DNA from: an uncultured Actinomycetes bacterium
Lineage (GTDB): Bacteria; Actinomycetota; Actinomycetes; Nanopelagicales; Nanopelagicaceae
Length of the DNA stretch: 64,000 bases
Direction: 5' to 3'
Assembly: GCA_903843225.1 (NCBI GenBank)
Contig: CAIMOX010000038.1
Coordinates: 62,001-126,000 of the forward strand
Shown: piece by piece, positions 23,906-24,966 of the stretch
Layout: each line of letters opens with the position of its first letter
Numbering within the stretch: position 1 is the stretch's first letter
The notes under the pieces: generated by a model
Databases searched by the model: none
Seen by the model: only the letters and a program-made list of their open reading frames with translations
What the model was told of the DNA's origin: nothing
Made by a program: the position numbers and the translations under genes

Positions 23906-24277
23906 TTAGCGAGTCTCATTGATCACGATTGGCAGGCGAGGGCAGTCGTTCCACAGACGATCGAGCATATAAAAATTGCGAAGCTCTTGGGTCTGGATGT
24001 GTACGACCAGATCTGAGTAATCGAGCAAGATCCACTGACCCTTGCCCTCACGACGAATTGGCTTCTCACCAGTCTTCGCGAGCGCTTCAAAGACACCATC
24101 GGCAATCGCTTCAGCTTGGCGATCTGTTGATGCTGTCGCAATCAGAAAGACCTCAGAGAGAATCATCTGTTCGGTCATATCAAGTGCCACGATATCGGTA
24201 CCTAGCTTCTCAGAGATCGCATCTGCTGCTAATTGTGCGAGATCACTGACTGCTTTACTTGCTGCCATATAAGCCAT
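23906..24277 (-). CDS. rsfS: Ribosomal silencing factor RsfS
   Basis: Binds ribosomal protein L14 and blocks 50S-30S joining under starvation. It has 123 residues (or 120 from the ATG at 24268). Family motifs are DIVALDMTEQMILSEVFLIA, STDRQAEAIADGV and the C-terminal WILLDYSDLVVHIQTQELRN. It overlaps the end of nadD by 23 bases; nadD-rsfS-phosphatase is a widely conserved order. Confidence 0.94.
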   Translation of the reverse strand: MAYMAASKAVSDLAQLAADAISEKLGTDIVALDMTEQMILSEVFLIATASTDRQAEAIADGVFEALAKTGEKPIRREGKGQWILLDYSDLVVHIQTQELRNFYMLDRLWNDCPRLPIVINETR

Positions 24278-24827
24278 TTTCTTTGATGTAGGTACGAACT
24301 GATGGTGAGAGCATTGGGGCTACATCTGATCGCTTCGCGACTGCATCACGGACCTGTGTTGCGCTGATATCCAGCGCCTTAATCTCAACCTCAGGAAAGG
24401 CTGATTTCGATTGTCCAGGGCGCTTTACGACGAGAATTTCGACAATCTTCAGGAGCGCATCTGATCGATACCACTGGTCAATCTTCTCGGCTGCATCACT
24501 ACCAAGAATCAATGTGAAGGTATCTCGTGGGTAGATCATGCGAAGTTGATTGATGGTGTCGATCGTGAAAGTTGGGCCTGTGCGATTTACTTCAAGATCG
24601 AGAACGGAGACCTTCTCCTGCAAAGAGTCGGGAAGATCGCCGAGAGCTGCGATACACATCTCCACGCGATGAGCGCCACTAGCGCCGGGCTTATCGGTGC
24701 GAAGACGTGGCTGCCCCGAAGGAATGACGAAGAGTGAATCAAATCGTGACTCAACTGCGGAGAGGATGCGAAGGTGTCCTAGATGAATCGGGTCAAAGGT
24801 GCCACCAAGAATGCCTATATGTGCGAT
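24255..24827 (-). CDS. nadD: Nicotinate-nucleotide adenylyltransferase, apparent AUC start
   Basis: Converts nicotinate mononucleotide to deamido-NAD. The nucleotidyltransferase motif GILGGTFDPIHLGHLRIL is encoded at about 24762-24815, followed by FVIPSGQPR, GSDAAEKIDQWYR and ISATQVRDAVAKR. In this frame there is no ATG, GTG, TTG or CTG between the upstream stop codon (about 24847) and the catalytic motif; the first GTG is at 24665, after it. The codon where ATG would be expected is ATC at 24827 (I-A-H-I-G-I-L-G-G-T), 4 bases after the stop of the upstream small ORF. I therefore infer an AUC start; a point mutation or sequence error is the alternative. About 190 residues. Confidence 0.85.
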   Translation of the reverse strand: MAHIGILGGTFDPIHLGHLRILSAVESRFDSLFVIPSGQPRLRTDKPGASGAHRVEMCIAALGDLPDSLQEKVSVLDLEVNRTGPTFTIDTINQLRMIYPRDTFTLILGSDAAEKIDQWYRSDALLKIVEILVVKRPGQSKSAFPEVEIKALDISATQVRDAVAKRSDVAPMLSPSVRTYIKENGLYGSK

Positions 24828-24831
24828 GAGA

Positions 24832-24966
24832 TTACTCGCGGTCTAAACGAAGAACGAGGAAGAGCAGGAAGCTCAAGACCCCGAAGGCAAAGAGTCCGAA
24901 GAAGACTGGCGAAGCGGGAAGGTGACGAGCAACGCCCTCAGCGTGAATATGAAGTGATCTGAACAT
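24832..24966 (-). CDS. Small single-helix membrane protein
   Basis: A 44-residue ORF, MFRSLHIHAEGVARHLPASP followed by one hydrophobic helix (VFFGLFAFGVLSFLLFLVLR) and LDRE. It fits in the 148-base gap between ligA and nadD, 9 bases after the ligA stop codon, and its stop is just before the presumed nadD start. Small single-pass proteins occur next to nadD in other Actinobacteria. The function is unknown, but the hydrophobic segment and tight spacing support a real gene. Confidence 0.7.
   Translation of the reverse strand: MFRSLHIHAEGVARHLPASPVFFGLFAFGVLSFLLFLVLRLDRE

Follow-up and report, generated by a model that had tools for sequence, protein, structure and literature searches.

An AUC or AUU codon as the probable start of nadD in several genera of Nanopelagicaceae

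Introduction

Where does translation begin when the reading frame of an enzyme holds no standard start codon ahead of its first conserved motif? This question is raised by nadD, the gene for nicotinate-nucleotide adenylyltransferase, in a stretch of 64,000 nucleotides (the window) from an uncultured bacterium of the family Nanopelagicaceae, whose assembly is a draft of 54 contigs. A preliminary description of the window had proposed that nadD starts at an AUC codon close behind a small upstream open reading frame (ORF), possibly by coupling to its translation, and had named a one-base error, ATC for ATG, as the trivial alternative.

Characterised bacterial start codons other than ATG, GTG and TTG are called very few in the available part of PMC5472188. 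According to the same excerpts, the infC start of Streptomyces is ATC, IF3 acts through the GTC start codon of sigR to repress this gene in Streptomyces coelicolor, and non-standard starts were repressed by IF3 in both E. coli and S. coelicolor. The ATC and ATT codons found at nadD fall in the start class that IF3 discriminates against, that is, codons other than AUG, GUG and UUG (PMC5472188, excerpts). In E. coli, excess IF3 inhibits re-initiation, less so when a Shine-Dalgarno (SD) sequence is present (PMC2268962, excerpts). In S. aureus, AUU and AUA starts yield about 10%, and up to 30%, of AUG output (PMC13009471, excerpts). Among the literature matches listed, from which subscription papers and preprints were largely absent, no title or abstract described a non-standard start for nadD.

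Results

The nadD frame of the window

The genes around nadD lie on the minus strand in the order 676-aa ORF (which we take to be ligA), small ORF, nadD, rsfS and a histidine phosphatase. The features used below are as follows.

24832..24966, minus strand: upstream ORF of 44 residues with one membrane-spanning-like stretch (judged by eye), from the sequence
24843..24845, minus strand: in-frame TAG closing the nadD frame upstream, from the sequence
24828..24831, minus strand: spacer of 4 nt, TCTC, separating the AUC from the stop of the upstream ORF, from the sequence
24825..24827, minus strand: ATC, proposed AUC start codon of nadD, from 27 of 27 congeneric loci and zero codon changes
24255..24827, minus strand: nadD, nicotinate-nucleotide adenylyltransferase, 190 codons plus stop counted from the AUC, from TIGR00482 and PF01467
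23906..24268, minus strand: rsfS, ribosomal silencing factor, from PF02410 (93.8 bits) and TIGR00090 (93.5 bits) on 23906-24277

In profile searches the NadD of the window scored 125.2 bits against TIGR00482, above the cut-off of 112.45, and 66 bits against PF01467. Other nicotinate-nucleotide adenylyltransferase models scored under their own cut-offs (for example NF000840, 136.4 against 150). Three open frames of the genome matched PF01467, with 180, 195 and 293 aa. The frame of 195 aa is nadD, and the other two are presumably coaD and a FAD synthetase. A second copy of NadD was not found in the genome, where the protein matched only itself at E 0.001.

The frame encoding GILGGTFDPIHLGH is closed upstream by a TAG at 24845-24843, a small correction to the position of about 24847 given earlier. 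After the TAG it reads ACC GCG AGT AAT CTC ATC GCA CAT ATA GGC ATT CTT, and then GGT GGC ACC TTT GAC, which is part of the motif. No ATG, GTG or TTG occurs in the window sequence between the TAG and the GILGGTFDPIH motif. The preliminary description had placed the ATC correctly at 24825-24827, and its distance of 4 bases from the stop of the 44-residue ORF was also right, the TAA of that ORF being at 24834-24832. The first standard codon lies 55 codons into the conserved protein in the window genome (G000) and 25 codons into it in the genome G010, and starting there would cost NadD its GGTFDPIH motif in both.

ATC is invariant at the start position within the genus

Genera are referred to by the labels of the search tool (g1, g2 and so on), g1 being the window's own genus, and one genome was sampled per species. 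A nadD match was obtained in 27 of the 32 g1 genomes examined, including 16 of 16 near-complete ones, and all 27 loci were read. Seven loci (L002-L008) on the same contigs as loci with G handles were left out of the counts. In each of the 27 loci an ATC was located five codons ahead of the ILGG position, and a standard start was found in none of them between the nearest in-frame stop and that position. Close relatives, to which the preliminary description had pointed as a check, thus support its AUC start, and the lack of a standard start before the motif, noted in the window, holds throughout the congeners read. Inside the motif, a TTG was present at the Leu of ILGG in three loci (L088, L089 and L106). 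In L091 an in-frame stop stands one codon ahead of the ATC.

The codon alignment of the 27 g1 nadD genes contained 66 columns with an invariant amino acid, 64 of them degenerate and eight of them all-Ile. The start column was ATC in every sequence and showed zero codon changes on the gene tree, while the seven other all-Ile columns had changed codon 9, 6, 6, 5, 7, 11 and 1 times (mean 6.4). The naive Poisson chance of no change at the start column, which ignores rate differences between sites, was 0.0016. Seven of the 64 columns changed at most twice, namely the start column and six columns at the 3′ end (191-193, 197, 198 and 200), where rsfS has its AAGGAG-like site and its start. The all-Ile column with a single change belongs to this 3′ set and lies in the rsfS ribosome-binding site. 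Strong codon-level constraint therefore appears, as judged from the alignment, at the proposed nadD start and at the start of the next gene, and at no other invariant column. The codons ahead of the ATC vary among g1, and the conservation of the NadD protein starts at the ATC. That ATC never drifts while Ile codons elsewhere in nadD do argues for AUC as a selected start.

The downstream gene overlaps the end of nadD. The conserved ATG of rsfS (24268-24266) lies inside it with a 14 nt overlap, and an overlapping ATG was present in all 27 congeners. In 21 of them an AAGGAG is found about ten bases before this ATG, within nadD. The window species and its five closest kin lack the AAGGAG before rsfS and have an extra upstream ATG at 24277 instead.

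A conserved small ORF ends just ahead of the start

Much of the family has a conserved small ORF located between ligA and nadD, with the end pattern FFG...LRLDRD. An ORF with an RLDRD-like ending precedes nadD in 77 of 79 loci. For the 44-residue ORF of the window, no Pfam or NCBIfam match was obtained at E 0.1.

The spacer between the stop of the small ORF and the ATC was 4 nt in 22 of the 27 g1 loci and 12-15 nt in the other five, and the corresponding stop-to-start spacer was 2 nt in 15 of 17 g2 loci. In most g1 and g2 loci the start is thus only a few bases away from the stop of the small ORF, as in termination-reinitiation pairs. This geometry makes it plausible that nadD is coupled to the small ORF by termination-reinitiation.

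The SD energy before the AUC was -2.5 kcal/mol versus a median of -3.6, with an SD no stronger than this in 33% of 344 genes, and no strong SD sequence was found before the nadD AUC. A special RNA fold at the nadD start was detected neither in the window (z 0.64) nor in L088 (z -0.19). Given the unremarkable SD strength, a dependence on coupling is no more than putative, and the spacing, which ranges over 4-15 nt within g1, counts against it. In two g4 loci (L302 and L303), a small ORF ahead of nadD was looked for and not found, and the ATG of nadD there follows an AGG-rich stretch. This would be the expected pattern if ribosomes ordinarily reach nadD by way of the small ORF.

The non-standard start in other genera of the family

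All three g7 loci had ATC and no standard start. In g15 we read nadD in 18 of the 20 genomes that gave a match (all but G112 and G113). By our assignment ATC was present in 16 and ATT in 2 of them, and a standard start was absent in 17 of the 18, the remaining locus (L121) having a TTG four codons after its ATT. In L115 and L116 an in-frame stop directly precedes ATC ATC. The g2 survey covered 17 of the 18 genomes with a match, without G156 and a second site in G170. The junction TAATTAT[TC] was found in 15 of the 17, with ATT 13 times and ATC twice. A standard start was absent in 14; L137 has GTG, and L140 and L142 have TTG and another junction. No standard start was present in the two g12 loci and the two g9 loci read (from four and five matching genomes, respectively). 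Both genera have a TAATT junction whose TAA is the stop of the small ORF, giving ATT at a UAAUU junction.

Across g1, g7, g15 and g2, a standard codon before the motif was found in 4 of 65 loci (L121, L137, L140 and L142), and a few loci of the AUC/AUU genera carry a TTG inside the motif. Six loci scored as lacking a standard codon (L114, L127, L135, L136, L141 and L301) have a frame open for at least 40 codons and were inspected that far. As read from these loci, AUC appears to be the main codon in three genera of Nanopelagicaceae and AUU in others. The non-standard nadD start therefore seems to be common to several genera of the family, an extent that the preliminary description had underestimated.

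Standard codons were found elsewhere in the family. All 20 g16 loci read had TTG (14), ATG (4) or GTG (2) at or beside the same position. The loci L009-L017, all with TTG, probably belong to g16 as well; L009 is on the same contig as L280, which is already among the 20, and the others are outside that count. In g3, g4, g5, g6, g8, g10, g11, g13 and g17, a standard codon was available in every locus read (1-5 each), although in g5, g10, g13 and g17 this codon falls within the terminal part of the small ORF and the true start may be elsewhere. Part of the genomes were read in g16, g17, g4, g9 and g12. That g16 and nine other genera tolerate or offer standard starts counts against reading the nadD codon as a weak start kept by selection.

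A tree of 35 loci was based on 745 columns taken from nadD, rsfS and a portion of ligA. In it g1, g7, g15, g11, g2 and g13 formed one clade (support 97), within which g11 has TTG, and g12 paired with g9 (99) elsewhere; some inner nodes were weak (42-74). Two histories would fit. AUC/AUU may be ancestral to the g1-g7-g15-g11-g2-g13 clade, with a second origin in g12 and g9, or it may be older and have given way to TTG, GTG or ATG in other genera. AUC and AUU were exchanged within g2 and within g15, and no ATG was found at the nadD start position among the loci read of the six-genus clade.

Two observations were made beside this survey. In an actinobacterium from the same class but more distantly related (L310; G062:C1, 463474-463974), nadD has no ATG, GTG or TTG in the 38 codons before the motif; the nearest TTG is at -39, and CTG codons lie close to the motif. 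The locus L010 comes from a public record titled as a Bifidobacterium breve MAG (CAMBGL010000003.1). Its nadD junction is Nanopelagicaceae-like, and the title looks wrong.

infC and the genome-wide comparison

The infC start was ATC AGC in 28 of 28 congeneric matches (L154-L181), and in 16 of the 28 no standard codon was present between the in-frame stop and the ATC. AUC initiation is therefore probably at work in these cells.

From 629 kb of G000 and 951 kb of G010, 411 orthologous and largely overlap-free ORF pairs were drawn for comparison. In 88 of them conservation in both species reached one or more codons upstream of the first standard codon, and in 10 of them 10 or more codons. Six of these 10 overlap a tRNA or a long ORF within the conserved stretch. 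No such overlap was seen for the remaining four, namely nadD, a 416-aa ORF whose stretch measures 14 codons, and two short ORFs of 70 and 84 aa located near contig ends. The nadD stretch was the longest of the four, with 55 codons in the window genome and 25 in G010. This comparison misses genes with a chance ATG, GTG or TTG upstream, the infC of the window genome being one of them. A tRNA scan of 629 kb of the 1.35 Mb genome gave 20 tRNAs, two of them Met(CAT), and no odd one was seen in this part.

Alternative readings of the nadD start

The alternative that survives best is that the AUC start is real and merely weak, lowering NadD output with neither IF3 regulation nor coupling. In E. coli pcnB, a different gene in a different phylum, a weak AUU start reportedly limits synthesis, and this precedent favours such a reading. 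On the other hand, some effect of IF3 would be expected, given its repression of non-standard starts in E. coli and S. coelicolor (PMC5472188, excerpts). A merely tolerated start should also turn to ATG by one change in some species, and none of the 27 congeners has done so. We regard this explanation as possible and short of an even chance.

Translation could also begin at another nearby codon, either CTC, CCC or ACC before the ATC, or ATA/GTA, ATT or the CTG/TTG of ILGG after it. These candidates all lie between the stop and GGTFDPIH, and the Leu of ILGG is a TTG in 3 of the 27 congeners. However, the codon preceding the ATC is highly variable, the codon at +3 is GTA, ATA, GTT or GTC, the next Ile is ATT, ATA or ATC, and the Leu or Phe after it is CTG, CTT, TTG, CTC, TTC or CTA. 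Only the ATC is fixed, and initiation at one of its neighbors is improbable.

If NadD were fused to the small ORF by ribosomal frameshifting or by read-through of the stop, a start codon would not be needed, and the position of this conserved ORF directly ahead of nadD would suit such a fusion. Frameshifting needs a fixed frame relation, yet the frame of the small ORF relative to nadD was +1 in 22 of the 27 g1 loci, 0 in the other five, and +2 in 15 of 17 g2 loci. Read-through fails for the same reason. The frame-0 loci have one or two in-frame stops between the two frames (two in L091 and L093), so the nadD frame does not join the upstream ORF; a joined frame is what the preliminary description had named as evidence against an AUC start. 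Moreover, a conserved slippery stretch was not seen by eye. A fusion is thus very improbable, more so than a start at a nearby codon.

A sequencing or assembly error for a true ATG would take a single base change in a draft assembly, and it is refuted by the relatives: all 27 congeneric genomes, each from a different species, have this ATC and none has ATG there, and ATC or ATT occurs in sister genera, including single-contig g2 genomes (G048, G032 and G059; L136, L146 and L148). Decay of nadD with loss of its start, which the small genomes of the family might suggest, can be dismissed with equal confidence, because 66 columns keep their amino acid in 27 species while synonymous positions are otherwise free to vary, the frame downstream of the ATC is uninterrupted by stops in all 27, and a second NadD is absent.

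Discussion

Taken together, the start of nadD at an AUC or AUU codon is well supported by the sequences. The explanation that we consider highly likely is that this is an old weak start kept by selection, probably used through termination-reinitiation and restrained by IF3. The AUC would presumably be decoded by the initiator fMet-tRNA. Ribosomes that terminate on the small ORF may begin again at the AUC a few bases downstream, or the AUC may be bound directly by 30S subunits. IF3, which disfavors both non-standard starts and re-initiation without an SD sequence, would restrain the AUC. We infer from these elements that NadD would be made at a low level, rising when free IF3 is scarce. Because rsfS is equipped with a separate ATG and, in most congeners, a separate AAGGAG, the outputs of NadD and RsfS need not be 1:1. 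The persistence of a weak start in many species suggests that it is used to limit or control the amount of the enzyme.

Several known systems resemble nadD in part. The AUU, AUC and AUA starts of infC are, like that of nadD, conserved and one base from AUG. However, infC is autoregulated by its own product, IF3, whereas nadD encodes a metabolic enzyme and is located directly behind a small ORF. The actinobacterial sigR likewise has a genus-wide non-standard start (GTC in 32 of 34, GTT in two), and both sigR and nadD overlap a following gene that carries a ribosome-binding site of its own (PMC5472188, excerpts). The two differ in that sigR is a stress regulator starting at GUC rather than AUC/AUU, has an extensive SD sequence (AGGAGGTG) where nadD has no strong one, and has a measured IF3 effect where that on nadD is predicted (PMC5472188, excerpts). 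The S. aureus genes ccpN (AUA) and cvfC1 (AUU) have conserved weak starts that lower output, as proposed for nadD, but their starts come with extended SD sequences and the nadD start does not (PMC13009471, excerpts).

A further idea, which we consider doubtful, is that infC and nadD form a small free-IF3 regulon in one branch of the Nanopelagicaceae, and that the weak start also sets the ratio of NadD to RsfS. RsfS is another factor that keeps ribosomal subunits apart. If the idea were true, scarcity of IF3 relative to 30S subunits would raise AUC/AUU initiation on both infC and nadD, and NAD synthesis would be linked to the condition of the translation apparatus.

The conserved AUC/AUU start of nadD would add to the small known set of non-standard starts a core metabolic enzyme that keeps such a codon across several genera of freshwater bacteria. 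The switches among AUC, AUU and TTG on one tree offer a natural experiment on why weak starts persist, and with nadD the control of a metabolic gene by IF3 becomes open to direct test. Gene finders that accept only ATG, GTG and TTG would misplace or drop nadD, and a gene of the NAD pathway may then look truncated or missing.

Two minor observations concern other genes of the window genome. Its infC (L178, G000:C16) has an ATG four codons upstream of the ATC, and this ATG could mislead gene finders. The 416-aa ORF with 14 conserved codons before its first standard start (G000:C7, 64470 onward, plus strand) has no long-gene overlap and possibly has an unusual start.
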